From a virus: 26,406 nt of DNA. The stretch covers positions 1 to 26,406 of IMG/VR virus record IMGVR_UViG_3300009001_000081; one strand, written 5' to 3'. The number at the start of each line of letters is the position of its first letter. The first letter of the stretch is position 1. Below the pieces are notes generated by a model. It did no database searches and had not been told where the DNA came from. It saw only the letters and a program-made list of their open reading frames with translations. Shown here in pieces: positions 2,751 to 26,406 of the stretch. The position numbers and the translations under genes are program-made.

Positions 2751-2760
2751 GATATATATT
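2751..2760 (+). promoter_or_regulatory. Candidate late promoter GATATATATT before the hub block
   Basis: GATATATATT stands 17 bp before the ATG of the 605-aa structural gene, in the 72-bp gap that separates the small genes from the baseplate hub genes. The same 10-mer recurs at 11011, and a one-base variant at 12376 and 26152, always before a gene after a gap. No shared -35 element is visible. T4-type late promoters are also a single TATA-like box without a -35, so a phage late promoter is the natural reading. Confidence 0.5.
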
Positions 2761-11000: not shown

Positions 11001-11010
11001 AAAGTGAAGA

Positions 11011-11020
11011 GATATATATT
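11011..11020 (+). promoter_or_regulatory. Candidate late promoter GATATATATT before the S1-like gene
   Basis: GATATATATT is identical to the element at 2751 and lies 26 bp before the S1-like ATG, in a 46-bp gap. The repetition of the same 10-mer before two separate gene groups is the main support. A distinct start for this gene would let it be controlled apart from the upstream baseplate genes. Confidence 0.5.
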
Positions 11021-11039
11021 ATGTTACACCTTTAATATA
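11015..11039 (+). repeat. Inverted repeat in the S1-like gene leader
   Basis: TATATTA (11015-11021) pairs with TAATATA (11033-11039), a 7-bp all-A/T stem with an 11-nt loop. It overlaps the 3' end of the GATATATATT element and ends 7 bp before the ATG. The stem is weak (no GC), and AT-rich DNA often gives such matches. It would matter if it is an operator or a translational control element. Confidence 0.3.
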
Positions 11040-11046
11040 AAAAATA

Positions 11047-12360
11047 ATGACTGAAAAAAAGAAAAGAGCTAGAATCGGAGAGGCTACAGCCGAAACTAAA
11101 GAACTCAACATCAAGGTAGAAGAAAGAGTAGCTGAAAATATCGATAACATTGATCAACTAAAAAACAAGGAGGATCAATCTACAACAGATTCAGAATTTT
11201 ACGACGCAGATGGTAACTTTATGTGGGAAGCATATGAAGCAACTTGTCCATCTCACACTAGAAAACCAAATCCACACATTCGTACTAGAAAGGGCGATAA
11301 AGTCTATTCTAGAGAATCTTATGCCCAAGAACTTTATGATATTTACAGCAATGTAGATAACTACGACAATATCAAAACTAAGGTATTGCCAGGTGAAATT
11401 CACGAAGGAACTATTTTTGGTATTAGCACAGAATGGATTAGTGTCGACATTGGTTACAGAGAGCTTGTTTATGTTAAGTACGGTAAAGAAACACCAGAAG
11501 TACAGCAAATGTCTGTTGGTGAAGAGACCGCAGTCTTAATTACTAACGTACAGCCAGGTGAACACATTAGTGGATCTATTAGTGGTGGTGTTAAGCAAAA
11601 GGTATTTATGGATCTTAGAGACGGTGTTGAATCAGGCGATACAGCTTGGGTCGGTCGAGTTTCTCATATGATCGAAAATGGTGGTTACATTGTTAGAATT
11701 CAAGGCATTGATTGCTTTATGCCAGGTTCACTAGCTGGAATTAATAAACTACATGACTTCTCATCTATTGTTGACACTGAGATGTATGTTGTTCCGGTTA
11801 GTTTCTCACCAGAAAGAGGTACATTAGTAGTTTCACACAGAAAGTATTTACAAGCCCTAATTCCAGATGCAATTGAAGATCTTAAACAAAATATCGAAAA
11901 CGAGCAAGTTGGTAATGTAACAGGAACTGCCAAATATGGTGTCTTTGTAGAGTTTAATAAATGTTTGACTGGGATGATTCACTCTAATGACTTAGATCAA
12001 GAAACAATGGCTAAGTTTAAGGCTAGAGAAATTAAACCAGGTGATGAAATTAGATTTAAAGTTAAAGATATTATTAATCACAAAAAGATTACGTTAACTC
12101 AAAAGACTGAAGTTACACATAATCCATGGATGAATATCAACTCTCGCTATCAAATGCCATCTACAGTCTCAGCTAAAGTTAAGACTAAAAAAGATTACGG
12201 TTTATTCATTACGATTGAAGAAGGTGTAACTGGTTTGCTTCATGTAAGTGAACTAGGGGAAGACACAATGTCTGTTTTTAAACCAGGCGATGACATCACT
12301 GTACAAATTACTAGAATTGACGAAGATGCTATGAAGGTATTTCTTAAAATGCCTGAGTAA
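11047..12360 (+). CDS. Ribosomal protein S1-like RNA-binding protein, four S1 repeats (437 aa)
   Basis: Four S1 (OB-fold) repeats are visible. R1 is at about 114-180 (VLPGEIHEGTIFGISTEW, ISVDIGYRELVYV). R2 is at about 197-268 (GDTAWVGRVSHMIENGGYIV, then DTEMYVVPVSFSPERGTLVV). R3 is at about 287-352 (VGNVTGTAKYGVFVEFNKCL, TGMIHSNDL, IKPGDEIRFKVKDI). R4 is at about 371-435 (PSTVSAKVKTKKDYGLFITI, EEGVTGLLHVSEL, FKPGDDITVQITRID). Bacterial S1 normally has six repeats and binds mRNA at the 30S subunit, mattering most for messages without a Shine-Dalgarno sequence. Residues 1-110 are charged and lack a recognised domain; they may replace the ribosome-binding N-terminus. I infer a phage factor that helps translate its A/T-led messages or controls RNA. 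It has its own promoter-like motif and lies among baseplate genes. Confidence 0.85.
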   Translation: MTEKKKRARIGEATAETKELNIKVEERVAENIDNIDQLKNKEDQSTTDSEFYDADGNFMWEAYEATCPSHTRKPNPHIRTRKGDKVYSRESYAQELYDIYSNVDNYDNIKTKVLPGEIHEGTIFGISTEWISVDIGYRELVYVKYGKETPEVQQMSVGEETAVLITNVQPGEHISGSISGGVKQKVFMDLRDGVESGDTAWVGRVSHMIENGGYIVRIQGIDCFMPGSLAGINKLHDFSSIVDTEMYVVPVSFSPERGTLVVSHRKYLQALIPDAIEDLKQNIENEQVGNVTGTAKYGVFVEFNKCLTGMIHSNDLDQETMAKFKAREIKPGDEIRFKVKDIINHKKITLTQKTEVTHNPWMNINSRYQMPSTVSAKVKTKKDYGLFITIEEGVTGLLHVSELGEDTMSVFKPGDDITVQITRIDEDAMKVFLKMPE

Positions 12361-12369
12361 CTCGAACGA

Positions 12370-12406
12370 GAGTGTGATATATAATCCAAACGGTAATATC
12401 ATACTC
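12370..12406 (+). repeat. Inverted repeat spanning the promoter motif before the amidoligase-like gene
   Basis: GAGTGTGATAT (12370-12380) pairs with ATATCATACTC (12396-12406): an 11-bp stem with one G-T pair and a 15-nt loop, ending 4 bp before the ATG. The left arm contains the first half of GATATATAAT. This is the best stem-loop in the window. No T-run follows it, so a simple intrinsic terminator is unlikely. An operator, or an RNA hairpin controlling translation, fits better. Confidence 0.45.
12376..12385 (+). promoter_or_regulatory. Candidate late promoter GATATATAAT before the amidoligase-like gene
   Basis: GATATATAAT lies 25 bp before the ATG in a 50-bp gap, nearly the same spacing as at 11011 (26 bp). 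The identical 10-mer recurs at 26152. It sits inside an inverted repeat (12370-12406). Confidence 0.5.
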
Positions 12407-12410
12407 TTAG

Positions 12411-13721
12411 ATGCAAAAGCTAAATAAAAATTCTACTAGGGAACAACTCTTGAACTCTGCGCTTGTTGGTGTGGAGTTCGAGTTTTATTCCAACCTAGAG
12501 TTAGAAGAGACCAAAAAGTCATTATCTGAACTTTTGGGAAGAAAGATTCAATTAGAGGATAAAGCTCATTCAGACTTTCAACCTGATGATAAAGTCTTTA
12601 AATTGGAACCTGATATGTCAGGCGGTAAAGGACTCATCGAGCTGGTTACGGGTGCAATGCCTTATAGAAATACCAGGATTGTCATCATTAAGATGCTTAA
12701 TTGGATCAAAGAGAATGGCTATACAAATGATAGAGCCAGTATTCACTTAAATGTTTCATTTGATAATCAGTACTTAGAAGATCCTACAATGATTTCTAAG
12801 ATGAACACTCTAAAATTTATCTTGGAATTTGATGAGGCTAGAATATACAAATTCTTCCCTAATCGTGAAAATTCTACATATGCTAAAAGTATTAAGTGGA
12901 TTATGCCAAAAAGAGAGGCATACTGGTTTGACGAAGATCACATTGAACCTAATAACTTTAAGTTTGCTGACACAAAGTATTACGGCATTAACTTCTCTAA
13001 AAAAGAGAAGAACTATTTAGAGTTTAGATACCTAGGTGGTGAAAATTATCACGAGAAAAAAGAAGCCATTTTGCACCTCTTAGATCGTTTTATTTTACAG
13101 GTTTGGAATTCATGTAATGATCCAAGATTTACGCCTGAAAATAGAATAGAATTAAAAAGAATCTTAAACAAGAATTTACCACTTATTGAGATGCTTAGAG
13201 ACTATAAGAAACTTAATAAGTATTGGCCTAAGATTAATCTTTTAGTAGACCTTCAGGATAATGATCAAATCATTAAAGTACAGTGGGATCGTATTAAAGA
13301 AAGAGTATTAAATCTCATAGTTGACGGATCTTTAGAAGCTGGTACAATTAATTATGACTCTGATTATTCAACAATTCAGGTTAAAGATGGAGTTATGAAC
13401 ACTGCATATAACATCGATGGTTTTGAATTTATAGATTGTGAAATTAGAGGTAATGTAATGAATGCTTCTATTTATGGCGGTACAGTTGAAGGCTCTATGC
13501 TTGTAAGATGTAACATGTATCAAGGCGCTGAAATAAAAGACAGTAAGGTCGAATCGTGCTATGTTCACGGTAGTGTAACTGCAACCAATTGTTTTGTATT
13601 CGGTAGAGATGGCGTCTTTAAAGGCAAAATGGTTGGAGGTATTTATAGAGAAGGTTTCTTAGGCAAAGAGGCGAGAATAGATGATACTACTGAAGTGGTA
13701 GTAAGTAAAAAAATAAAATAA
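12411..13721 (+). CDS. Amidoligase-like enzyme (COOH-NH2 ligase family) with beta-helix-like C-terminus (436 aa)
   Basis: Residues 18-25 (LVGVEFEF) give the paired acidic motif that begins amidoligase_2 and related glutamine-synthetase-fold ligases. Further signature parts follow: EPDMSGGKGLIELVTGAMPY (66-85), with Glu77; then SIHLNVSF, with His112; and YLEFRYLGGENY (203-213), with Glu204 and Arg206. In this family these residues bind Mg-ATP and the carboxylate for making an amide bond. Residues about 310-425 have repeated short beta-strand motifs (NVMNASIYGGTVEGSMLVRC, EIKDSKVESCYVHGS), as in a right-handed beta-helix. The substrate is unknown: a peptide, a phage or host protein, or cell-wall material. 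The gene has its own promoter-like motif and follows the S1-like gene after 50 bp. Confidence is high for the fold, low for substrate. Confidence 0.7.
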   Translation: MQKLNKNSTREQLLNSALVGVEFEFYSNLELEETKKSLSELLGRKIQLEDKAHSDFQPDDKVFKLEPDMSGGKGLIELVTGAMPYRNTRIVIIKMLNWIKENGYTNDRASIHLNVSFDNQYLEDPTMISKMNTLKFILEFDEARIYKFFPNRENSTYAKSIKWIMPKREAYWFDEDHIEPNNFKFADTKYYGINFSKKEKNYLEFRYLGGENYHEKKEAILHLLDRFILQVWNSCNDPRFTPENRIELKRILNKNLPLIEMLRDYKKLNKYWPKINLLVDLQDNDQIIKVQWDRIKERVLNLIVDGSLEAGTINYDSDYSTIQVKDGVMNTAYNIDGFEFIDCEIRGNVMNASIYGGTVEGSMLVRCNMYQGAEIKDSKVESCYVHGSVTATNCFVFGRDGVFKGKMVGGIYREGFLGKEARIDDTTEVVVSKKIK

Positions 13722-13724
13722 AAG

Positions 13725-14567
13725 ATGAGCGAAATTAGAAGCGGTAGCGAAAATAATCTAACTACTCCTAGAGATTTTGGTGAAAACTGTTTGAATGCGT
13801 TTTTAACCGAAATTGGTGATGAGATTACCGGCGCTTGTATGGTCCCTGTTAATTTACCACAAAGAGAGGTTGTTAACATTATTAAAAGAGCTAAAAAATG
13901 GTTCTATAAAAAATATGAGGATTCAGTAAAAGAAAACTATTACCACATTCCAAATAGTGTCTTTAGTAGCGAGTACTTTAAAAATAATCGTACATTAAAC
14001 TTACCTGGCCCCAGTGTTGACGGTGGCGGTGCTGTTTATTCAGTCTATGGTGTTCATGATTTGGCCAGTGGTTGGAATTCGACTGGTATGGGAATGGATA
14101 TGAGATTCCAAGGTGGTGCTGATTTTGCTATTGAAAAAATGTTATTTAGAGGTATGTACGATGGTTCAGGCCCAGCTGAAGCTGCGGAAGAATTACAGTA
14201 CTATGTTCTAAATGCCAGTTTAGCTGATATGTCTAGAATGATTCTTGAAAATCCTATTTCTTATCAATATTCAAGATTAACAGGTGAGCTTAAGTTTATG
14301 GGTGATACACCTAAGGGTGATGTTATTCTAGAGGTTTATGAAACTTTACCAGACTGTGCCCTTTACGATGATGAAATTTTCTTTAGATATATTAGTGCTA
14401 AGATCAAACAGTCATTAGGAGCTAAGCTAGGTATCTTTAAGTTCGCACTACCTGGTAATGTTGAGTTTGATTATGGCGCCATCAAGGATATGGGCGATGA
14501 AGAATTAGCTGCAATTGAGGAAGAAATCAAAGGTGACGAAGGGGTCGATTGGATGTTCCACAGCTAA
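13725..14567 (+). CDS. 13: Neck (head-tail connector) protein, gp13-like (280 aa)
   Basis: The N-terminal region (DFGENCLNAFLTEIGDEITG, VNIIKRAKKWFYKKYEDSV) resembles the helical part of phage adaptor/neck proteins. The C-terminal part is the best clue: IFFRYISAKIKQSLGAKLGI followed by FKFALPGNVEFDYGAIKDMG and EELAAIEEEI. This matches my knowledge of T4-like gp13 proteins, where a helix (AKxLIKxxWGxNLxKF) runs into an LPGGVxF(N/D) strand and an acidic EEI helix. T4 gp13 is about 309 aa, so the length fits. In T4, gp13 and gp14 close the head and join the tail. The middle (SVDGGGAVYSVYGVHDL) is Gly-rich. It starts 3 bp after the amidoligase-like gene and precedes gp25 by 21 bp. Confidence 0.6.
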   Translation: MSEIRSGSENNLTTPRDFGENCLNAFLTEIGDEITGACMVPVNLPQREVVNIIKRAKKWFYKKYEDSVKENYYHIPNSVFSSEYFKNNRTLNLPGPSVDGGGAVYSVYGVHDLASGWNSTGMGMDMRFQGGADFAIEKMLFRGMYDGSGPAEAAEELQYYVLNASLADMSRMILENPISYQYSRLTGELKFMGDTPKGDVILEVYETLPDCALYDDEIFFRYISAKIKQSLGAKLGIFKFALPGNVEFDYGAIKDMGDEELAAIEEEIKGDEGVDWMFHS

Positions 14568-14588
14568 AAAAATCAGATACATATATAA

Positions 14589-14945
14589 ATGGAATTTTAC
14601 ATTAAATACATAGGCGACCCTAACTATCAAACTGATCAAGTTCAAAACAACGGTGAGATAGAGCAGTTAATTACTCAAATTGAGACGACACTGTTTACCG
14701 ATACTGGCGATGTTTTAGGATCACCTGATTTTGGTTGTGCATTAGAAGATATGATTTACGAATTAAATCAAACTGAGTCGGCTATTAAAAATGTAATAGA
14801 TTCTCAAATAAGAAGTTACTGCCCGTTGGCAGGCAAATATAATGTTGTTTCTAAAGTTAGCTTTTTTAAGGGTGAAGTTAGAGACATTGCGTACATAGAT
14901 ATTACAATAGATAGTAAGTATTTAGTACAAATAAATATTAGGTAA
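14589..14945 (+). CDS. 25: Baseplate wedge protein gp25 (118 aa)
   Basis: This is the small, strongly conserved sheath-initiation and wedge protein of contractile tails (gpW/gp25 family, T4 length 132 aa). The pattern is typical: NNGEIEQLITQIETTLFTDTG, GSPDFGCALEDMIYELN, then AIKNVIDSQIRSYCP, and a closing beta-strand section (DIAYIDITIDSKYLVQINI). gp25 nucleates sheath polymerisation and joins gp6 in the inner wedge. It is followed directly by gp6 (one base between the TAA and the ATG), the order seen in many myoviruses. The sequence GATACATATATAAATG runs into the start codon and is a weak relative of the promoter motif, but it leaves no leader. Confidence 0.85.
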   Translation: MEFYIKYIGDPNYQTDQVQNNGEIEQLITQIETTLFTDTGDVLGSPDFGCALEDMIYELNQTESAIKNVIDSQIRSYCPLAGKYNVVSKVSFFKGEVRDIAYIDITIDSKYLVQINIR

Positions 14946-14946
14946 A

Positions 14947-16776
14947 ATGGCTGAATTAAAATTTTTAAGCACACTTAGATCTTCTGCATCTCAAATTAGA
15001 GACGATGCTAGAACCTATATTACTAGGGTCTATAAGCGTGCAAACACACTTTTTACTGAGGCTTCTCCATTTGCTCAAATTCTTTCAGTCTTATCTGAGA
15101 TAGCTGAATTGATTATGTTCTATATCGAAGATGCTACAGTTGAACAAAACATTTATACTGCTCAACAACCCGAGTCTATTTATGGACTTTCGAGATTGAC
15201 TGGTCACGATGCGACTAGAGGCTTTGCAGCGACAGGTGAAATTGAATTTAGATGGAAGCCAGGCGCAGATTTTAGTAAAATCGCAGGTACTGGTTTAACA
15301 ATTGACTCTAGAGCTAAACTTAAGTTTGATGCAAACGGTTTAATGTATACACTACTTACCGATAAAGATAGATTTAGACTAGAAAAAACTAATAAATTAT
15401 CAATTAAAACCGCTATTATTCAAGGTGAATTTGAATCACAAAAGTTTACAGGTTTAGGTACAGCATTACAATCATTTAACGTACAAACTCGAGGCCTTTC
15501 TGATCACAGCAAGGTAAGCGTAAGTGTTAATGGTGAAAAATGGACTAAACACGAATCACTTTATGATTTGCAAAGAAATGAAAAAGGCTACCTACTTAAA
15601 ACAGGTATTTCTGGAGGTTTAGACATTTATTTTGGTAACGAAGCGTTTGGTATGATGCCTCCAAAAGGTTCTGAGATAGAAGTTGAATATGTTAAGCATG
15701 TTGGACCAACTGGTAACTTACCTGATGGTGCAGACTTAACTGTTAAATGGGATGCTGAAGGTGAAGATTCATTGGGCGAAATGCATGATCTTAACCAATT
15801 CTTAGATGTAATCATTACGTCTTCACCAAAAATGGGCGCTGATAAAGAGTCAACTGTCTTTACTAAAGTTATGACTCCACTTGCTAGTAAATCGTTTGTT
15901 TTAGCAACGCCTGATAATTACGAATATTTCCTATCAAGATATGGTTTATTCTCATATATTGATGCATATAATACAACAGATGATCAATACCTAGATGACG
16001 ATAACGTGATCTATATTTTCGCAGTGCCTGATGTTAGAAAGAAATTGGCAAGTGGCCAAGACTATTTCTCAATTCCACAACAAGAAATGTTCTTTGATCA
16101 AAATGAGTATGATAAAATGTACCAAGTACTTCAGGATAGCGGCCAACAAATGGTAACTACTGAAGTTGTTTTTGTTAAACCTCAAATTAGAAAGTACAGC
16201 ATGGATGTAAACATTAGATACTTTGAAGGTTTCACTAAAGAAGAACTTGCAACTGAAATTAGAGAGCGTATCGGTACATATCTATTAAATATTACTAGAA
16301 GAGATAAATTACCAAAATCTGATATTGTGTATATCTTAGAAGAGATTGAAGGTATTGATGCAGTTAACGTTAGATTTATTTCAGAAACTGAAGAGACTGC
16401 TAGAAGACTTGGTTACTTTGAATCTGTAACTACAACTGTGGTACCACAAGAGCCTGTAACTTTGGAAACGGTCGGTAATGGTAAACAAAAATATGTTTTC
16501 TTTAAGCGTATTGAAGAGGTTGAAACGGTGACAGTTGATGAAACAACTATTATTCCAGAAACAGTCAAAGGACTTGATCAATGGGGTGATATTATTATGG
16601 AAAAAGAAGAAGTTGCTGTATTTAGAGGCGGATGGCAAGACAGAGACGGTGATGAAATCGTTGACGATGTATTGATCAACGCTGAAGCTGCATTAAGTAT
16701 TAACTTCGACGGAAATCCTGTGCCTAGAACAATTTACACTAGAGTACAGGCTGGAAATAGAAAAGCACTTAGATAA
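14947..16776 (+). CDS. 6: Baseplate wedge protein gp6/gpJ-like (609 aa)
   Basis: Position directly after gp25, length (T4 gp6 is 660 aa) and pattern identify the gp6/gpJ wedge protein, which forms the ring that holds the wedges together. The N-terminal helices (STLRSSASQIRDDARTYITR, FAQILSVLSEIAELIMFYIE, YTAQQPESIYGLSRLTGHDA) are characteristic. Residues about 90-270 are beta-rich. Residues 395-480 (EVVFVKPQIRKYSMDVNIRY, TREELATEIRERIGTYLLNI-like segment) match the gpJ C-terminal region. The last 120 residues are acidic, with Val/Thr-rich segments and two possible extra beta elements. It ends in an ATAATG overlap with the next gene (last A of TAA shared). Confidence 0.8.
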   Translation: MAELKFLSTLRSSASQIRDDARTYITRVYKRANTLFTEASPFAQILSVLSEIAELIMFYIEDATVEQNIYTAQQPESIYGLSRLTGHDATRGFAATGEIEFRWKPGADFSKIAGTGLTIDSRAKLKFDANGLMYTLLTDKDRFRLEKTNKLSIKTAIIQGEFESQKFTGLGTALQSFNVQTRGLSDHSKVSVSVNGEKWTKHESLYDLQRNEKGYLLKTGISGGLDIYFGNEAFGMMPPKGSEIEVEYVKHVGPTGNLPDGADLTVKWDAEGEDSLGEMHDLNQFLDVIITSSPKMGADKESTVFTKVMTPLASKSFVLATPDNYEYFLSRYGLFSYIDAYNTTDDQYLDDDNVIYIFAVPDVRKKLASGQDYFSIPQQEMFFDQNEYDKMYQVLQDSGQQMVTTEVVFVKPQIRKYSMDVNIRYFEGFTKEELATEIRERIGTYLLNITRRDKLPKSDIVYILEEIEGIDAVNVRFISETEETARRLGYFESVTTTVVPQEPVTLETVGNGKQKYVFFKRIEEVETVTVDETTIIPETVKGLDQWGDIIMEKEEVAVFRGGWQDRDGDEIVDDVLINAEAALSINFDGNPVPRTIYTRVQAGNRKALR

Positions 16777-17042
16777 TGTTTGATAATTTATTTTTATATA
16801 AGAAAACACGTGTTTATGATAATGCTAAATCTAGAAAAGATGATAGGCTAAATATTGGTTATGATTACACAAATGAGCCCTTTTTAGCTAGAATGCTTTC
16901 AAGACACATTATTAGAAATCAAACATTAAATGACTTTTTAATTTTTATAGATGATTATATTTTTAATCTATTAAAGGGTGTTAAAGTTTTAAAGAGTTAT
17001 AAAAACTACACTGTGAAAAAAGACGACAAATACATTAGATAA
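16776..17042 (+). CDS. Small basic protein between gp6 and the gp7-like gene (88 aa)
   Basis: Function not recognised. The ATG shares its A with the gp6 stop and its stop shares an A with the next ATG, so translation of the three genes looks coupled. The protein is rich in Lys, Arg, Tyr and Phe with several short hydrophobic helices (EPFLARMLSRHII, LNDFLIFIDDYIFNLL) and a basic end (KSYKNYTVKKDDKYIR). It has no membrane segment of full length. A small wedge component or an assembly chaperone would fit the position. No other evidence supports either role. Confidence 0.6.
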   Translation: MFDNLFLYKKTRVYDNAKSRKDDRLNIGYDYTNEPFLARMLSRHIIRNQTLNDFLIFIDDYIFNLLKGVKVLKSYKNYTVKKDDKYIR

Positions 17043-19795
17043 TGTACAATAACCTAAGATTTTTTAATGGGTTAACCACAGATTTAAACTTGGTTAAAAA
17101 CTCACAAGGTATTTGGGCCGGTAGAATTTACATGCCTGAAGTTTCTGTGCAATTATATGAAACTGTCAACCTTTTTGTTTTAGAAGAGTGTAAGTATTTA
17201 GGCGATTTAACACCAAACACACCAGTTGCCGAATCTGTAGATCCAACTCAATTTGTTTTTAAATGGAAACAAGGTAATTTAGCCGACTCTGAAGATATTA
17301 TCTTATACTCAGCTAAGTTAGATGACGGCATGTATAAAATAGAAAATCTTACCGAGGTTAGACATGATCTAATTGATAGTTCAGTTTCTCCAGGGTTTGA
17401 TACGAATGGTGTTAGAGAAGTAAACACAAAGCAAAATGTAGCACTTCAAGTAAATGTAGCACTTAGCTCTAAAATAGAGGGTCCACACACAAGAACACTA
17501 GAAGTTTATGAATCAGTTAATGGGACAGAAACTCTAATTGCCTCAATTCAATTTTATGGTGAGGTTGAAGCTGAAGATGAAAGACTTAAAACATTACTTC
17601 AAAACTTTGGCGCTACTTTAGATGAAGGTGACTTTTTATTGTTTAAAGATCATGACATTAGTGAAATGTCACCAGATTATGTATTACTTAATCAAAAAAG
17701 AAAGGAGCTTTTATTAGAACTCCATAACATTAAGCCTTTCGTTGGCACATATAAAGCTATTTTAAATGCGATCGACTTTTTTGGCTATGATAGAATTACA
17801 CTTAAAGAGTATTGGATCAATGTAGATAAATCAAGCAATAGCTTTGGTAAACTCTATGCGGTGCCGGTGCCAAATGCATCTAAGAGAGGTGAGATGATTC
17901 GCAAGAAGATGCGTTTCAAAGTACCTAGTAACACAACTAAAAAGACAAGTAGATTCTCTTTAGTTTACAGATTAAATGAGCCTAATGGCACCTTTGATTA
18001 CTGGGATATTCCTAATGTTGATGAGGTATTTGATTACACACCAGATGAGGTTATTATTAAATTATATGGGCTAAAAAATAAGTTACAACGAGAGTATTTA
18101 CCTCTTAATGCTAAAATTATTGATATTACCGGTGAAGGTGATTATTTTGCTCAGAAAAACTTAAATGTTTGGAACATTCAAAATGGTATTGGGTTCTTTA
18201 GTGAAGGGCATGATATTAAATTTGAAATGCATCCCAAAGAGCGTCCTATTTTTATCGAGGACACCTCAATGGTTTTAAAGTCAATGCTAGATCAAAATGA
18301 TCCTACTTCGAATTATGATTTATTCTTGAACATGATTCCTGGGACTGAAGATCAATTAACTGAAGCACAACGTATAGAGCTTAAATCGATCTATAAAGAA
18401 TTTTACGAAACCTACTATAACAGAGAATTACACTCATATAATCAAAATATTCCTGTCGGTGCTCCTGTAACTTTAGACGGTACTTTGACATTTGATGATA
18501 TTTGGGATGAGGCTGACTTTACATGGGAAGATGCAATGGACGCTAACTCAAATCTTAAAGTAACATGGGAAAACTGGTGGAAACGTTGGGTTTATGAAGT
18601 TGAATGGGTAGTTACTAATCACGAGCGAGGATATAATCAATCGTTTAGAGGACCAATCGACGACTTTTTAGTTTTACCTCTAAATTTACCATATAGTGGC
18701 AAGTACAGCGTAGAGTTTAGAACATATGACTTGTTTGGTCATAGGTCACATTATAGAAAGGACGACTTTGTTGACGTTAGACTTAAAGAACTTGAACTCT
18801 ATGGTATTTACAAGTGGAAAGAAGACACAACTTGGAATGATAAAGTTTTAGACTGGAGAGAAAGCGGCGGCTATTGGGATTTTGCACAAGACAATTTGAC
18901 AAAAATTGATGATAGCATTGCTACTCTTTATTTGACTCTAGATAGAGCAAATTACGTTCACATGGAAGATGATCAAGGTGTTAGATTCTCAACAGTTAGA
19001 AGATACTTTGATATTTACTCAGAAGATGGTTTTAGTGAAACTACTGGGCCATATCAATGGGACGAATGTGATTTTAGATGGAATGACACTAAGCACTTAT
19101 GGTGGAAAGCTATGAGAGTTGGTTCTGATTTAACGGCTAGCTTTAAAATAGATCATATTGAACAAGGTGATCAATTGGTGATTGAGCATACAAATCCAAT
19201 TACTAGAGAAATTACTACAGCAACTCACACTATTACTTCGCCAAGCCCAGTAAGTTATTCTGATATTGGTGGTTGGAATGCTGTTATAAATGAACTCAAT
19301 GATAGTACAGATCCTATTATTAGTAAGTTTAATTACAATGTTGTATTTGAGGACATCGATGGTACAAATCCACTAGCTTCAGATATTTTTAGATTTATTT
19401 TAGCAGTTGGTTGGGAATACTCATATACGTACGATTACTCGAATGTATACATAGTAAAAGCAAATCCATCTAGTAACTCAGCAGTGTCTGGTGAAACCCA
19501 TGTTGTACATTACAATCCTACATGGGACGATACTCGAGTATTTAAGAGTTTTGCTGAAGTTGAAAGATCAACTCACGTAACGATTTCTACTGATATTTCT
19601 AAATTTCCAGGCGCTAAGAACGCTATTTGGAGAATTCAGAATATAACTAACCCAGAAATCACTGATATATACTATAATAATATGTGGCTTACCTACATTT
19701 TCAAATATCCAGGGTACTACTCTATTGAACTTGAAGCGGAAGACACATATGGTAATAAGAACGTTGTAAAACGAAACATGTTAAAAGTAAAATAA
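17042..19795 (+). CDS. Large baseplate wedge protein, gp7/gpI-like with Ig/PKD-like modules (917 aa)
   Basis: Position after gp6 and size (T4 gp7 is about 1032 aa) suggest the gp7 wedge protein, which links gp6 to gp10 and the periphery. Residues about 195-260 (FLLFKDHDISEMSPDYVLLN, LLLELHNIKPFVGTYKAILN, FFGYDRITLKEYW) resemble the helical core of tail protein I-like baseplate proteins. From about 480 the chain is modular. There are two Ig/PKD-like units, near 515-580 (SGKYSVEFRTYDLFGHRS) and 843-917 (PGYYSIELEAEDTYGNK). Tryptophan-rich repeats occur at about 483-517, 590-612 and 671-689. These modules probably face outward. It starts within the preceding stop and is followed by fibre-like genes. 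Alternative: a fused wedge and fibre-attachment protein. Confidence 0.5.
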   Translation: MYNNLRFFNGLTTDLNLVKNSQGIWAGRIYMPEVSVQLYETVNLFVLEECKYLGDLTPNTPVAESVDPTQFVFKWKQGNLADSEDIILYSAKLDDGMYKIENLTEVRHDLIDSSVSPGFDTNGVREVNTKQNVALQVNVALSSKIEGPHTRTLEVYESVNGTETLIASIQFYGEVEAEDERLKTLLQNFGATLDEGDFLLFKDHDISEMSPDYVLLNQKRKELLLELHNIKPFVGTYKAILNAIDFFGYDRITLKEYWINVDKSSNSFGKLYAVPVPNASKRGEMIRKKMRFKVPSNTTKKTSRFSLVYRLNEPNGTFDYWDIPNVDEVFDYTPDEVIIKLYGLKNKLQREYLPLNAKIIDITGEGDYFAQKNLNVWNIQNGIGFFSEGHDIKFEMHPKERPIFIEDTSMVLKSMLDQNDPTSNYDLFLNMIPGTEDQLTEAQRIELKSIYKEFYETYYNRELHSYNQNIPVGAPVTLDGTLTFDDIWDEADFTWEDAMDANSNLKVTWENWWKRWVYEVEWVVTNHERGYNQSFRGPIDDFLVLPLNLPYSGKYSVEFRTYDLFGHRSHYRKDDFVDVRLKELELYGIYKWKEDTTWNDKVLDWRESGGYWDFAQDNLTKIDDSIATLYLTLDRANYVHMEDDQGVRFSTVRRYFDIYSEDGFSETTGPYQWDECDFRWNDTKHLWWKAMRVGSDLTASFKIDHIEQGDQLVIEHTNPITREITTATHTITSPSPVSYSDIGGWNAVINELNDSTDPIISKFNYNVVFEDIDGTNPLASDIFRFILAVGWEYSYTYDYSNVYIVKANPSSNSAVSGETHVVHYNPTWDDTRVFKSFAEVERSTHVTISTDISKFPGAKNAIWRIQNITNPEITDIYYNNMWLTYIFKYPGYYSIELEAEDTYGNKNVVKRNMLKVK

Positions 19796-19804
19796 ACAAA
19801 GAAA

Positions 19805-20377
19805 ATGGCAAACATTACTGAAATCTTAGGTACTGACTCGGTATCTTCGTCTAGACCAATTATCAATACTAATTTTGAGTTATTGAATGATGAGTTAGCT
19901 AGTGTAATTTCTCTCTTAAATCCAACAACTCAGGTTTTAAGTGGAGTTTCTAATATTACAACAGCGGCTATTACTGTTTCGCAAAACAACTTAAACCTTC
20001 TCCAAGTTAATGGTAACGGTGGCGTTATCAACACTGACTTTGCGTTTAATAATGCTATCACAATGGGTGGTAAAGTTATTAAGAGCGGTGTTGTAGGTAC
20101 CACAGTTGCTCCGACTGCAACTTTGCAGCTGACTACACTTGAAGCTTCAACTTATTTTGTTGACGCGGCCTTTACATTGCCTTCAGGTGATGACGGTCAA
20201 GAAGTAACGGTAATCGTTGGATCTACAGCTTCAGCTGCAGTTTCAATTTTAACCGGAGCAGGTGTTACTTTAGGCGCTACTTCTATTTCTTTAGATGCAG
20301 CAAACTCTTCAGTAACTTTAAGATGTTTTAGCGATAAATGGTACGTAGTTAGCTCGCACGCAGCTACAATCCAATAA
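19805..20377 (+). CDS. Fibre-like virion protein (190 aa)
   Basis: Function inferred from composition and place. Residues 1-30 have a polar start with VSSSRPIINTNFELLNDELA, a helix of a type seen at the N-terminus of phage fibre and appendage proteins. Residues 40-90 are Asn/Val/Thr repeats (NITTAAITVSQNNLNLLQVN) as in beta-structured fibre shafts. Residues 95-188 look like a compact beta-sandwich head (TATLQLTTLEASTYFVDAAF, LPSGDDGQEVTVIVGS, SVTLRCFSDKWYVVSS). No catalytic motif, signal peptide or membrane segment is visible. It lies 9 bp after the gp7-like gene. A short tail fibre or baseplate decoration trimer is the likeliest reading, with host-surface binding possible but unproven. Confidence 0.55.
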   Translation: MANITEILGTDSVSSSRPIINTNFELLNDELASVISLLNPTTQVLSGVSNITTAAITVSQNNLNLLQVNGNGGVINTDFAFNNAITMGGKVIKSGVVGTTVAPTATLQLTTLEASTYFVDAAFTLPSGDDGQEVTVIVGSTASAAVSILTGAGVTLGATSISLDAANSSVTLRCFSDKWYVVSSHAATIQ

Positions 20378-20398
20378 ACAAAATTGATAAAAAGATAA

Positions 20399-22336
20399 AT
20401 GGCTACTCCTTTAGTTAGAATACCTCAGCCGCAAGGTGGCACGATGTATGCGTTCGCATCTTCAGCGAGAGACATAACTAGGGCCTTTAACAACCCAGAT
20501 ATTAAGTTTGAGTTTAGTAAATACGCTTTACTGGACTTACCAGACTTTACCCAATCTGTTAACGGTTCTAATACGATTGATTATGAGCTTAATTTAAAAC
20601 AAGCTTCTGGTCAGTCTTATGTTGCTTCGATGCCGAATGTTGACTTCGCACAAACCTTTCAAAATTACGCACTTAACTTAGAAGAACTTCTTTTAGGGGA
20701 TGATGATTATGATCCAATCATTCTACAATCAGACGCTGAGAAAATCTTCTTTAAATGGCTTTCTGCCTTAGGTGCTATTGATTTTAGGCCGACTGATTCT
20801 AACGAGAGCGTATTAGGAAACTACGCTGAAAATGATAATGCAATCTTAGGTGGTTCTAATTATGATAAAGTAGTTAAGTATCTTGGTTCTATCGACGCTG
20901 AAAACGATATTACTTATAAAGACAATACCTATCACGAGGTTTACATTAATGTACCAACTTCGGTTGGTTATACACCACTAGTCCTATTTAAGCCAACCGA
21001 TTATAACACAACTGCAACTAAGTTGTATGCAAGCGATTATATTGAAGGCAGAGCTGGACAACAGCACCCAGATCCTAACATCAATATTGATACTATTGTT
21101 GATGCTTATACACAAAACAGTGGTGCATACTATGATATTCAAACGAATGCTACAAATAGTGTTCAAATCGATTTTAATGCGGCTAATTATGCTCCGATTC
21201 AAAATGATCCAGACGTTAAGTCACTATTAGACTACGCTAAAAAGGGTCAAGATTTTAGATTCAACGCTGTATTAGTTTATTACGATCTTTATAGTGAATC
21301 AGTGCCTGCAAATAGATCGACTAACCTTTATGGTATCTTAATTCTTGATGATATTCAAGATGCGTTTGGTCCTGGTACAAAAATTCACGAACAAATTAAG
21401 TATAAGCCAAACGAGGTTACTGGCCTTAATGGTAATGCTTACTCTTTAAAGTTAAACTTAAAATTCAACTCATCTCTCGATAATGTCGGTGTAGAAACTT
21501 CAGTTAATGATTTTACTACATTCTCAATGGATCTATTTATGGATACTACGACTGCCTTAGAGAATGCAACTGAATTACTTTTAGCGGCCAACACAAGATA
21601 TTCTTCAATTGTCGATAGACTAGATGACATGGAAGGACTACTTGTAAATGGTCAAGATGCTCAAGAAATTATTGCTAGATTAGAAACTTTAGAAACAGAT
21701 TTTGAGAACGCTTCTATTCAATTAGAAGACTCAAGAGCGCTTCTTAATCTGATCACTAAAGCACATGATAAAATTAACCAACTAATTGACGGTACCATTC
21801 CTGTTGAATTACAGTATAACACTGATGTTATTTTTAATGGTCAAGGTACTCAAGTTGACAAATCAATTGCTAATAAAATTAAAGTTAATAATACTGTATA
21901 TGGTTACTCTTTAAATGAGGTTTGGCTATGGAATATGATTGGTCAATATTTAGCTGTTCAATTGGGTGGATCAACCTTATTTGATGCTAATGATGACGGT
22001 AACGGCGCAGACAAATTTGCTGTTTGGACTAAGTTATTGGCTTACACAAATAGATTGAGTTTAAAGGGACTATTTTTAACAGGCCCTAATGCAGACTTGA
22101 ATATATACATTGATGATAGTTTCAATGCTTGGAAAGCAGGTCAAACCATTAAAGTTGCATTTGATACAATTGACATGGATGGGTATGACATTAAGTTTTA
22201 CACTGGAAAATCAACCGGTTTTGATAAACTTGTAGCAGACATTGACGTTACTCAATTAATAACAAACAAACCGTATATAGAGATAACTTGTATTGATCCT
22301 ACAAATTATGTCTTTGAAGCTGATATTTTAAGATAA
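20399..22336 (+). CDS. Probable baseplate/appendage structural protein (645 aa)
   Basis: I do not recognise a named T4 counterpart. The N-terminus (TPLVRIPQPQGGTMYAFASS, DITRAFNNPDIKFEFSKYAL) looks like a baseplate attachment region, and its pattern is familiar to me from structural genes of T4-like Bacteroidota phages. Residues about 60-380 are mixed beta and Asn/Asp-rich loops, as in virion surface proteins. Residues 395-470 are a coiled coil (SIVDRLDDMEGLLVNGQDAQ, IIARLETLETDFENASIQLE), implying a trimer or dimer. The C-terminal 170 residues are beta-rich. The position, between the gp7-like/fibre genes and the 1262-aa protein, suggests a gp8, gp10 or adaptor role. The start lies 21 bp after the 190-aa gene in an AAGATAA leader. 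Confidence 0.5.
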   Translation: MATPLVRIPQPQGGTMYAFASSARDITRAFNNPDIKFEFSKYALLDLPDFTQSVNGSNTIDYELNLKQASGQSYVASMPNVDFAQTFQNYALNLEELLLGDDDYDPIILQSDAEKIFFKWLSALGAIDFRPTDSNESVLGNYAENDNAILGGSNYDKVVKYLGSIDAENDITYKDNTYHEVYINVPTSVGYTPLVLFKPTDYNTTATKLYASDYIEGRAGQQHPDPNINIDTIVDAYTQNSGAYYDIQTNATNSVQIDFNAANYAPIQNDPDVKSLLDYAKKGQDFRFNAVLVYYDLYSESVPANRSTNLYGILILDDIQDAFGPGTKIHEQIKYKPNEVTGLNGNAYSLKLNLKFNSSLDNVGVETSVNDFTTFSMDLFMDTTTALENATELLLAANTRYSSIVDRLDDMEGLLVNGQDAQEIIARLETLETDFENASIQLEDSRALLNLITKAHDKINQLIDGTIPVELQYNTDVIFNGQGTQVDKSIANKIKVNNTVYGYSLNEVWLWNMIGQYLAVQLGGSTLFDANDDGNGADKFAVWTKLLAYTNRLSLKGLFLTGPNADLNIYIDDSFNAWKAGQTIKVAFDTIDMDGYDIKFYTGKSTGFDKLVADIDVTQLITNKPYIEITCIDPTNYVFEADILR

Positions 22337-22337
22337 T

Positions 22338-25300
22338 ATGAATACTAATAACTCAATTTCTAATTCGCTCAAGAAGCTTCTTGAAATTAACTCTAACTCA
22401 TTAAAAATTTATGAGAGAATTAATGAAGCTATTACTACGGATTTAAAAGATGTACCATTAGAAGTCATTACTGATGAGGGTACAACTAAGACCGTATATG
22501 TACCTTCTTTTGGGTTTATGAAGCGAGAGCTAGAAAGATTAGACACTAATCTTAAGGCTTTAACAGGATTGGGTAAAGGTAATACTAAGATTAAATTGCC
22601 AGATGGCACATATCAAAATATTGTTACTTCAAGATTAAAAGCTCCAGCAAATGATATTTCGTCTCTAATCAGACCATCTTCATTTACTACTAAGAGCAAC
22701 TATTTCTTTGAAGATTTTTTAAACCCTCTTTTAACTACAACTTTAAACGTTACAGGTCAAATTCCAAATGACACTGAAAGAGTTTTAGTTAAGAGAATTA
22801 TTTTCGATTCTACTAACGTGCCATCAGTTGAGTTCTTTAAGGAAAACTATAAGAACCAAGAAGGTATTGATTACTACACAGCACTTAGAGACATTGCTAA
22901 TAATAACTTAACGTATATCGTTGACGAAGAAGTTAGAGACCTACCATATAGAGTTAATCAATATATTGGTAAGTTTGATGTATTGTCAATTGATTCGGCT
23001 AAAAAAGACGTTATCGTTGAAGGCACAACTGTTAAAAGATCGGTTAAGTTAATCACACTTGACAAACTAACTTACTCTGATAACGATAAAGATCTTGATC
23101 AAACAGAATTGTTAAAAGTTGGTGATGAGTTAATGGTTAACTCTGGCAACAGAAACACTAGATATAAGATTTCTAAAATTGATGGTTCAACTCGTCAAAT
23201 TGAAGTTCAATTAGTAGAGGGTTACGATCCTATTAAGATTGGCACTGACGTACTATCGATTTATAAATATAACACAACTGCGTTAAACATTGAAATTAGT
23301 TTAGGGTTTAACGAGAGAGTCCTCTTATTTGTTAAGGCGATTGATTCAGATTCTGGCATGTTAGCAGAAAATTGGTCACCTGGTATTGGTTTCTATACTA
23401 ACGAAATGATCCTTCTTCAAGAAGATGGTTCAGAGATTAGGTTAGATGACTATTACAAGGACAACGTTGCTGATTTCGGTCAATATATTAAAGCATTAAA
23501 AGAGGACGCTATTCCACCGGCTACGGTTGGTGTAACTCCAGATGCTCCAACACTTGAAGCTTCAAACTTTAAGGTGGTTCAGATCAACTCACACTTAACA
23601 CAAAATGATACTGCTGATAAAATTAAAAAGCTTTCAGCGGATAAGACGACAGTTGAAGAAACAATTAAGAAGCTTGACGATACAATAGCTAAGAAGAGAA
23701 CTGAAATCTCTACTAAGAAGTATGAGTCTGATATTCAAAAAGACAAGGACAAGAGTGAATTAAATGCACTTATCGAGGAAAGAGCTAGTGAAACTAAACT
23801 CTACAACTCACTTGTAAATCAGATTCAATCTTTGGCTTCAGGCACAAACGTTACTAACATTGCACCTAAATATCGCGTTAGAGGTTTTTGGGCCGTTCCA
23901 TCTCCAAAGAAAGTTGCAGACACTACTGATCAACAAGTAGTTCAATTTGCTATTCAATATAGATACTTATCGACGAGTGGTAAGGCAGGCGAAGTTGCTC
24001 AACTACCATTTACAGATGGCACTAGAGAAAAGACTGCGGTCTTCTCAAATTGGAATGAGATTAGAACCAAGGTTAGAGATCGTGCAAGAAATACTGACAC
24101 CGGTAAATTTGAGTGGAAAGAGAGTCTAGTTGAAGATGGTCAAGAGATCAACTTTAACCAATTAGATATTGCTATTAATGAAGGTGAACTAGTTGAAATT
24201 AGAGTTAAGTCAGTTTCAGAAGCTGGTTATCCTGCAAACCCAATCTTTAGTGACTGGTCAGAGCCAATCACAGTTGATTTCCCAGAAGCTGAAATCGATA
24301 CAACGGATCTTGACAATTTGGTAGAGAAAAACTTAGCTGAAGTTGCAGCCGTTAAAATCTCAGACGAATTGACAGCAAGAGGTGTTTACACTCACGTTGA
24401 TGAAAGCTTTACAGCTAACGAAACATATTATGCTCACACTGCAACTAACATTGCATCGGGCTTTCTTTCACCAGAACAAAAACCAGTTTCTGTCTTTGAC
24501 AAATTGACTGAACTTGAAAATCAGATTAGAGCTCTTAAAGAGGGTATTGAAGCTGAAGTTGGTGAATTGGTAGTTAAGCTTCAAGCAGAAGATGGTACAG
24601 TAACAATCGTTAAGAACAATACAGTTAATCAGATTTTTGCTGGTTACTATGTTGATGAGGTAGCTGAACTTTCTGTTAAGAAAGGACACATCGTTACTAA
24701 GACATTTAAACTACTTTTAGAAAACACTAAAGCAACTCAACTTGAACTTGTATCTAGATTGACTGGTGATAGAAACCAGCCAGCATACAAGTCTTCAAAC
24801 GCGGCTTCGACTATTACAACAAATGGCTTTGGTACATTAACAAATGATCAAGGTACTACTGCAATTGATACTAAAGTTGAGTCTGATACTTATTACACAA
24901 CGGAAGGTAAATACGATTTGGCACCGATTCAGTTCCAAAACATTTCATCTACTGAAATTTCAACATATGATTTATTAGAAGATGCGCCATATCAATCTGC
25001 TCAAAGACGTGGACAATTTGTCTACTCGAGATATATGGACATTGCTAATCAAAATCCACACTATATTACTTCGCCATTAACTGCGGGTACGGCGACTCTT
25101 AATAGTTATGAGTACACTTTAAGTTATGCTTCTTTTGAAGGTACAGCTGGTAATATATCATTGATTCAAGGAAGTGGAGATGGAAACTCTAGTGATTTTA
25201 TTTGGACCGGTACTTTTGGTAAGAACCAAAATGTAACTAGTTGGATTACTCCAGATCTTACTCAAAGATTTGATGCTTCTATGATCGACGTGTGTTCTAT

Positions 25301-26126
25301 TAGCACAATTGGTGCTGCAAACTATAATAGTGGATTGTATTTCCATAAAGATCACCCGGATTTAGAAAACATTTATGCTGGTTGGACTAGTGATGAAGAT
25401 GGTAACAGCACGGTTTCAAACCCAGCTGCGGTTACAGATTCTGAACAACAAACAAGCTTACAAGCGCTAATCAACAATGCTGGTTATAGTATGCCAATCA
25501 CAGCAACTCTTGTTACTGGCACTTCGTTTAGAACTGCAAGTAACGCAGTCTTTGGATCATCAGCAGTTGATGCAGATCCTGTTAAATCTAAGCAACAATT
25601 AGCATATCAATACACTGATTTAATTGCAGCGGGTGCACGTTCATTCAAGATGAGCTTTGATGCTAACGATCAATACCTATTAGGTGGTAGATCATGTGGA
25701 GCCTTCTTATACTTGTCTCCTATTAATTTAACGACACTTTCAGTTGATGGTGAAACTAAGCAATCAAGAAAGCAAGTTAAAGGCAGAGACAACTCAACAT
25801 TAGGCAACTCAAATGCTTTATCACTTGACGTTGTATTCCAATATAGAATGACTGATTACTTCGGTAACGACGCTTCGTCTGATATTGGTAGAATTGGTGG
25901 TCAAGCTAAATTAAGTTTCCCTAACTTAACGTATACTAAAAAGATTGGTCTAGATATTTTTGACAAATATGATACTCAATTCTCGTTTGATCTAGAAGTC
26001 TTCGCTAAATACAGTCCTAAGGGTAAAAACTTAAATTCTATTAGAGCGGCTCAATTAGTAAGAAATGTGCCTACATCTACAAACTTAGCATCTAAGCCTA
26101 GACTGTTCCAATTTGAATCACGCTAA
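22338..26126 (+). CDS. Large tail/baseplate appendage protein with coiled coil and FN3-like domain (1262 aa)
   Basis: This is the largest gene in the window and starts 1 base after the previous stop. Residues 1-80 are helical (SLKKLLEINSNSLKIYERIN, FGFMKRELERLDTNLKALTG), probably for docking. Residues 120-400 are beta-rich. Residues about 422-500 form a Lys/Glu/Asp-rich coiled coil (KIKKLSADKTTVEETIKKLD). Residues about 510-648 resemble a fibronectin type III domain (YRVRGFWAVPSPKK; QFAIQYRYLSTSGKA; VEIRVKSVSEAGYP; FSDWSEPITVDF). A second short coiled coil lies at about 715-740. The C-terminal 450 residues are Ser/Thr/Asn-rich beta structure. The architecture fits a long virion appendage or baseplate-peripheral protein. 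It might be the analogue of T4 gp10/gp12 or a fibre hinge, but the sequence does not settle which. Confidence 0.5.
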   Translation: MNTNNSISNSLKKLLEINSNSLKIYERINEAITTDLKDVPLEVITDEGTTKTVYVPSFGFMKRELERLDTNLKALTGLGKGNTKIKLPDGTYQNIVTSRLKAPANDISSLIRPSSFTTKSNYFFEDFLNPLLTTTLNVTGQIPNDTERVLVKRIIFDSTNVPSVEFFKENYKNQEGIDYYTALRDIANNNLTYIVDEEVRDLPYRVNQYIGKFDVLSIDSAKKDVIVEGTTVKRSVKLITLDKLTYSDNDKDLDQTELLKVGDELMVNSGNRNTRYKISKIDGSTRQIEVQLVEGYDPIKIGTDVLSIYKYNTTALNIEISLGFNERVLLFVKAIDSDSGMLAENWSPGIGFYTNEMILLQEDGSEIRLDDYYKDNVADFGQYIKALKEDAIPPATVGVTPDAPTLEASNFKVVQINSHLTQNDTADKIKKLSADKTTVEETIKKLDDTIAKKRTEISTKKYESDIQKDKDKSELNALIEERASETKLYNSLVNQIQSLASGTNVTNIAPKYRVRGFWAVPSPKKVADTTDQQVVQFAIQYRYLSTSGKAGEVAQLPFTDGTREKTAVFSNWNEIRTKVRDRARNTDTGKFEWKESLVEDGQEINFNQLDIAINEGELVEIRVKSVSEAGYPANPIFSDWSEPITVDFPEAEIDTTDLDNLVEKNLAEVAAVKISDELTARGVYTHVDESFTANETYYAHTATNIASGFLSPEQKPVSVFDKLTELENQIRALKEGIEAEVGELVVKLQAEDGTVTIVKNNTVNQIFAGYYVDEVAELSVKKGHIVTKTFKLLLENTKATQLELVSRLTGDRNQPAYKSSNAASTITTNGFGTLTNDQGTTAIDTKVESDTYYTTEGKYDLAPIQFQNISSTEISTYDLLEDAPYQSAQRRGQFVYSRYMDIANQNPHYITSPLTAGTATLNSYEYTLSYASFEGTAGNISLIQGSGDGNSSDFIWTGTFGKNQNVTSWITPDLTQRFDASMIDVCSISTIGAANYNSGLYFHKDHPDLENIYAGWTSDEDGNSTVSNPAAVTDSEQQTSLQALINNAGYSMPITATLVTGTSFRTASNAVFGSSAVDADPVKSKQQLAYQYTDLIAAGARSFKMSFDANDQYLLGGRSCGAFLYLSPINLTTLSVDGETKQSRKQVKGRDNSTLGNSNALSLDVVFQYRMTDYFGNDASSDIGRIGGQAKLSFPNLTYTKKIGLDIFDKYDTQFSFDLEVFAKYSPKGKNLNSIRAAQLVRNVPTSTNLASKPRLFQFESR

Positions 26127-26134
26127 GCTTAAAC

Positions 26135-26153
26135 TCTAACCAGTTTGGTTAGA
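26135..26153 (+). repeat. Inverted repeat after the 1262-aa gene
   Basis: TCTAACC (26135-26141) pairs perfectly with GGTTAGA (26147-26153) around a 5-nt loop, 8 bp past the stop codon. The right arm runs into the GATATATAAT element. There is no T-run, so it is not a textbook terminator, but an RNA 3' end or an operator is possible. Confidence 0.4.
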
Positions 26154-26161
26154 TATATAAT
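26152..26161 (+). promoter_or_regulatory. Candidate late promoter GATATATAAT before the last gene
   Basis: GATATATAAT, identical to 12376-12385, lies 39 bp before the ATG at 26201 in a 74-bp gap. It is flanked by inverted repeats on both sides. Its position at the boundary between the 1262-aa gene and the next gene supports a separate start of transcription. Confidence 0.5.
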
Positions 26162-26181
26162 AGAGAACACAGACTCTATTA
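26158..26181 (+). repeat. Inverted repeat in the leader of the last gene
   Basis: TAATAGAG (26158-26165) pairs perfectly with CTCTATTA (26174-26181) around an 8-nt loop. It overlaps the end of the promoter-like element and ends 19 bp before the ATG. It matches the pattern at 11015 and 12370, where a hairpin also overlaps this element. Confidence 0.4.
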
Positions 26182-26200
26182 ATAAAAGATTAAGCACTAA

Positions 26201-26406
26201 ATGGCTGCAATTTCAATAAAGATTACAAACGCAACGTATGCTGATGCTGCAACAGCCTGTTCAAGCGGGCCTGCAGTTATAAGCAGTGACAATCAAACAC
26301 TTTGGTATAACGACAGCGAAGGTAGTTTAAGCGCTCTTCCACAGGGAGGCTTACAGCTTTATACTGAAGAAGCGCTCACCAATGAATGGACAGGCACAAG
26401 TACGTA
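26201..26406 (+). CDS. Fibre-like/structural protein, N-terminal fragment
   Basis: The frame opens with ATG (MAAISIKITNATYADAATAC) and stays open for 68 codons to the end of the window, so it is a partial gene. Visible residues are Ser/Thr/Asn-rich with SSDNQTLWYNDSEGSL, a pattern common in small beta-structured phage appendage proteins. The rest is off the window, so function is unknown beyond a probable virion or fibre role. It follows the candidate promoter at 26152 and has no Shine-Dalgarno sequence in front of its AAGCACTAA leader. Confidence 0.6.
   Translation, partial: MAAISIKITNATYADAATACSSGPAVISSDNQTLWYNDSEGSLSALPQGGLQLYTEEALTNEWTGTST

Follow-up and report, generated by a model that had tools for sequence, protein, structure and literature searches.

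The late-promoter-like element upstream of an amidoligase-like gene (AMD) was found to form one arm, the 5′ one, of a hairpin that is conserved, covaries and ends at the AMD start codon. The window in which it lies is the whole 26,406-nt stretch of DNA analysed here (virus record IMGVR_UViG_3300009001_000081, positions 1-26,406), and the focus was on positions 11,001-13,721, where AMD follows a gene for an S1-like protein (Table 1). From the gene order, the elements, the covarying hairpin, the fold and motifs of AMD and the gp55-like sigma factor of relatives, all read from sequence, we consider it probable that S1 and AMD belong to two adjacent late units, with AMD behind a hairpin lock that bears the promoter.

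Table 1. Position of genes, elements and hairpin arms in the window
Feature	Position	Strand	Evidence
S1-like gene	11047..12360	+	437 aa; Pfam S1, phmmer against bS1, structure model
AMD (amidoligase-like) gene	12411..13721	+	436 aa; Pfam, motif residues, model, fold match
S1 element GATATATATT, late-promoter-like	11011..11020	+	Exact pattern; kept upstream of S1 in relatives
AMD element GATATATAAT, late-promoter-like, of the AMD-neck-gp25-gp6 unit	12376..12385	+	Exact pattern; relatives
AMD leader hairpin, 5′ arm, overlapping the promoter-like element	12368..12380	+	Folding, leader comparison
AMD leader hairpin, 3′ arm, separated from the AMD ATG by two bases	12396..12408	+	Folding, leader comparison
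Genes 3′ of AMD (neck, gp25, gp6, tail region); no further GATATATAWT	13725..26126	+	ORFs, profile searches, pattern scan
GATATATAWT copy at the start of the upstream unit, in front of the 2778 gene	2751..2760	+	Pattern scan, relatives
GATATATAWT copy past the unit; the gene that follows has its ATG at 26201	26152..26161	+	Pattern scan

Gene order and GATATATAWT elements

The genes of the window are arranged in the order hub (8296), 9015, S1, AMD, neck, gp25 and gp6, which confirmed the place of the pair given by the initial annotation, between the hub/spike and the neck/gp25/gp6 genes. The two ORFs and their S1 and Amidoligase_2 identities were likewise borne out by coordinates and Pfam matches. 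Several window genes taken as virion parts gave no family match in the profile searches, which leaves tentative the view of the initial annotation that no other genes of this stretch look unlike virion parts.

Exact copies of GATATATAWT were found four times in the window compared to 0.38 expected, a number that was reached in 1 of 100 shuffles; when one mismatch was allowed, there was no excess in the window (8 vs 9.8 expected). The element is located 26 bp upstream of the ATG of S1 and 25 bp upstream of that of AMD, and also in relatives each gene stands behind its own promoter-like element. Each gene thus has the element that had been attributed to it, but the element is not particular to the pair, as it is also found in front of two other genes, one at 2778 and one past 26126.

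In five relatives, the element showed a strand bias of 40:0 in favour of the coding strand, with a single match for the reversed control pattern, and for 40 of the 44 sites (window included) an ATG ORF of 40 aa or more began at most 55 bp further on. Nine of the 44, in G001-G003 and G005, are followed by an ATG at exactly 2 bp and make up a second class, which is odd for a promoter and not explained by a simple one. The element was less clear in LR756500 (27 matches vs 9 for the control pattern) and absent from G006 (0 vs 1).

A gp55-like late sigma factor (phrog_234) was detected in 6 of 11 related records with E values of 6e-10 to 2e-12; these six are the records of 119 kb or more, the others being 73-92 kb fragments, and it was not found in the 26-kb window itself. 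GATATATAWT can be read as a putative late promoter of the close clade, with presumptive start sites just downstream. A search of the literature found no publication tying GATATATA to a phage late promoter.

The distance from the AMD element to the next GATATATAWT was 13.7-13.8 kb in five of five cases (the window and four relatives with a matching AMD element), and the S1 and AMD elements were 1.3-1.4 kb apart in the window and four relatives; in G001, the fifth relative, the sequence of the AMD element is GATATATACT, which the pattern misses. In addition, among 93 distinct AMD copies (a set for which the best 80 of at least 570 confirmed loci were kept), the neck gene followed within 30 bp in 85, and in the other eight it was found at 45 bp (two), 509, 865 and 2938 bp (one each) or gave no match (three). 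Therefore, since the neck gene follows AMD and no element appears for 13.7-13.8 kb, AMD heads the structural unit and S1 is left alone.

An S1 gene was present at most 100 bp upstream of AMD in 87 of 92 distinct copies of the same set, after setting aside one copy that had no room upstream. The remaining five comprise LR756500, with S1 at 1293 bp, and four copies with no S1 nearby. As the best 80 of at least 570 confirmed loci were kept, these linkage counts describe close relatives. In four phages of 634-735 kb, S1 and AMD are 48 to 441 kb apart according to the record coordinates (LR756503 and LR756501 agree in length and in match positions); Lak-A2 (MK250019) contained S1, without a match for AMD being found, and T4 gave a match for neither.

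Regarding the proposal of the initial annotation that the two genes form a separately controlled cassette, their joint occurrence stands for the close clade, but it is lost in the four giant phages and in Lak-A2, so that outside this clade the case named by the initial annotation as a refutation does occur, and the idea of separate joint control is not supported. Because AMD continues into the neck gene and the element is general, the cassette as a control unit was dropped.

In L010, L013, L015 and L055, 1.9-2.8 kb of extra genes were observed between the 9015-like gene and S1, so the 9015/S1 junction takes insertions.

The hairpin in the AMD leader

The stem of the hairpin pairs up to 13 of 14 positions. 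When the region from -60 to +15 was folded, 18 of 19 distinct AMD leaders scored z < -2 (mean -3.55), and among 198 leaders from eleven other genes, folded over the same window, 8 did so. In a second program run, nine AMD leaders had z values between -2.0 and -5.0 and five S1 leaders between -0.8 and 0.9, although two S1 leaders scored -2.6 and -2.7 with a different fold window. As a control, the leader of T4 gene e was recovered by its z-score (-3.91), with TATAAATA in the 5′ arm; one of four other T4 leaders also scored -2.74.

Comparison of 46 distinct AMD leaders, taken from the best 80 of at least 570 loci, revealed GATATATA on the 5′ arm in all 46, 41 of them as GATATATAWT, and an ATAT[CT] anchor of the 3′ arm 12-18 nt before the ATG, also in all 46. 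Several pairs of the stem showed two-sided changes between groups in this same set. Pairing of the arms over 12 positions was 0.895, compared to 0.854 when the 3′ arms were re-dealt, a value as high being obtained in 0 of 5000 trials with kinship uncorrected, and it reached at most 0.562 in slid registers; the covariation excess is modest. Among 24 distinct arm pairs, G-U type pairs outnumbered A-C type pairs by 20 to 10. The hairpin is missing in LR756500 and G006, where the element is rare or absent, which confines it to the close clade.

The predicted accessibility of the initiation region was lower in read-through RNA for 21 of 21 AMD leaders (0.27 vs 0.63), and the drop was smaller for S1 leaders (0.57 vs 0.76; 19 of 24). 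This measure was given little weight, as it assumes a transcript start about 4 nt past the element and failed to separate T4 gene e (0.34 vs 0.37).

In the mechanism that we propose, S1, which lies alone between two late-promoter-like elements, would be made late, and AMD would open a late unit of 13.7 kb that also encodes neck, baseplate and tail parts. Read-through RNA coming from upstream would fold the hairpin, hide the start and keep AMD off; RNA begun at the element would lack the 5′ arm and allow AMD to be translated, as in T4 gene e. The lock predicts that AMD is silent until late, and the protein made at that time would most likely have a virion protein, or some other late substrate, as its target.

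A precedent for this arrangement, a late promoter located in a start-hiding hairpin of T4, is described in PMC3014915. As in the leaders of T4 e, soc, 49 and I-TevI, a late-type element is located on the 5′ arm and the 3′ arm extends to the start codon, and relatives of the window encode a late sigma factor of the gp55 kind that serves T4 late transcription. In contrast, the AMD element is GATATATAWT instead of the T4 TATAAATA, there is no Shine-Dalgarno sequence to hide, and the putatively blocked gene is an amidoligase-like one heading a structural unit. If the proposal is correct, the T4 lock with its promoter in the hairpin would also operate in large phages that are uncultured and make mRNAs devoid of Shine-Dalgarno sequences, a late structural unit would have acquired an amidoligase as its leading gene, and one two-armed leader would offer a concrete test of late control where no host of the phage is in culture.

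Alternatively, instead of locking translation, the hairpin could be where the S1 message has its 3′ end, protected or processed, or it could act in the DNA as an operator that covers the promoter. The hairpin begins about 8 bases past the S1 stop codon, a place at which messages often have protected 3′ ends, and inverted repeats that span promoters frequently serve as operators. Nevertheless, the near-constant distance of the 3′ arm from the AMD ATG argues against both options, and no T-run follows the hairpin in the window. Moreover, the arms vary between groups while their pairing is kept, with the G-U excess noted above, a pattern more in keeping with RNA than with a fixed site in DNA. We thus regard this interpretation as possible but rather unlikely.

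The S1 family is known for unfolding RNA, and it is conceivable, although improbable, that the phage S1-like protein melts the AMD hairpin, AMD being then made from read-through RNA once S1 accumulates. If so, a relative of a ribosomal protein would be the timing switch of a structural unit.

A hairpin was also observed at the element at 26152 (26131-26206 in the window, and the equivalent position of four relatives), with z values of -1.6 to -3.7 in the five records. Its 5′ arm overlaps the end of the element, and the start codon is 38-47 bp further on.

The S1-like and AMD proteins

The S1-like protein matched Pfam PF00575 (E 8e-21), and by phmmer its residues 112-434 are collinear with residues 17-345 of Escherichia coli bS1, D1-D2 included. 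It consists of a low-confidence N-terminal part of about 110 aa (pLDDT <55 over most of residues 1-110 of the structure model) followed by four S1 domains that correspond to D1-D4 of bS1; as the alignment is limited to bS1 17-345, D5-D6 are missing. The best score against the NCBIfam rpsA equivalog was 154 bits, below the cut-off of 524, and residues 39-218 alone found no match among solved structures. In bacterial genome contigs, 0 of 13 S1 pattern matches were confirmed with the narrow patterns used.

Shine-Dalgarno-like tetramers were found for 0 of 20 window genes and for 22 of 387 ORFs of at least 120 aa, and 7 of 11 related records (G001-G003, G005, G007, G008 and G010) encode a bS21 besides the S1-like protein. 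SD-poor huge phages with S1-domain proteins have been described in PMC7162821, and the Mahaphages of that study are predicted to infect Bacteroidetes; in other reports, phage bS21 is late-expressed (PMC9723584), and structure close to the start codon reduces translation in Flavobacterium johnsoniae (PMC6847099). The likely host of the phage studied here is a member of the Bacteroidota. The combination of S1-domain proteins, few Shine-Dalgarno sequences and a bS21 in relatives is shared with these systems, whereas here S1 is alone behind a late-promoter-like element, beside the neck operon. A shortened phage relative of bS1 would probably favour phage mRNAs without Shine-Dalgarno sequences, and translation takeover by this protein, from a late-type promoter, is possible.

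AMD matched PF12224 (Amidoligase_2) with E 2e-5 and 25.1 bits, over a cut-off of 22, and 7 of 16 AMD relatives matched the family at E 0.01. Its structure model (pLDDT 88.4) comprises a domain of glutamine synthetase (GS) fold at about residues 8-240 and a C-terminal beta-solenoid at about residues 308-430, and was superimposed on glutamine synthetase with Z 11.3 and 3.5 Å over 181 residues. Residues E22, E24, E77, H112, N114, E204 and R206 are invariant in 16 of 16 relatives; those of the ExE, H and R motifs are taken to be catalytic. Pentapeptide_4 matches were obtained in 5 of the 16. A search of solved structures with the single sequence gave nothing beyond chance matches, and a profile gave weak pentapeptide-repeat matches.

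The best viral structural match of AMD was a phage protein over its full length (TM 0.83), and many of its matches were phage proteins named amidoligase. No ATP-grasp match was found in Pfam, and the fold list contained GS-type chains, absence from such a list not being proof. In bacterial genome contigs, 0 of 58 AMD pattern matches were confirmed, also with narrow patterns. Fold and motifs make AMD a predicted ATP-dependent carboxylate-amine ligase, and from the position of its gene we would guess that the target is a late virion protein or another late substrate.

The LUZ24-like phages and Cellulophaga phage phi14:2 encode Amidoligase_2 proteins of the same Pfam family and glutamine-synthetase-type fold, beside genes for a glutamine amidotransferase, an ATP-grasp enzyme and GGCT in early or replication regions. 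For the LUZ24-like phages, the early cluster with its partner enzymes is reported in PMC3890496; that of phi14:2 appears similar, with gp052 taken as the amidoligase from its length. AMD might accordingly be part of a peptide-ligase cluster that makes a small metabolite, and its family and the many amidoligase-named structural matches agree with this. However, a Pfam search of 20 of the 23 window genes found no partner enzyme, and AMD carries a beta-solenoid tail and opens a structural unit, whereas the known clusters are in early or replication regions; we find such a role very unlikely.

RimK, which adds glutamates to S6, is an ATP-grasp enzyme. The idea that S1 and AMD are a single host-takeover cassette, in which AMD modifies S1 or a ribosomal protein as RimK does, draws on the tight pairing in close relatives, which extends to L043, where AMD has 35% identity and S1 is still adjacent at 4 bp, and on the carboxylate-amine ligase chemistry predicted for AMD; no support was found for the RimK link, and this is the least credible reading, since the fold matched by AMD is that of glutamine synthetase and Pfam gave no ATP-grasp match, a conserved acidic tail was not found in the S1-like protein, the genes are apart in the four giant phages and AMD gave no match in Lak-A2, and AMD is tied to the neck gene and its structural unit.

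Capsid-targeting-like N-termini in relatives

N-termini of the type MKYIKEYEEFILE or MKHIKLFEQFINE, which we liken to the T4 capsid-targeting sequences, were observed on many ORFs of relatives (L001, L005, L175, L082, L209 and others). A link between AMD and such N-termini in the giant relatives was considered and rejected: they occur throughout those genomes, so no link to AMD is claimed.

In four records, 14 of 498, 16 of 385, 8 of 167 and 12 of 151 ORFs carried such N-termini, and a control in one of the four gave 8 of 1760 internal methionines. In LR756500 (L001), neck and gp25 are separated by about 8 kb of small genes (21062-28780), several of which start with N-termini of this kind; in the window, the gap between the two is 21 bp. 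Their similarity to the T4 sequences suggests that protein cargo may be packed into the head.
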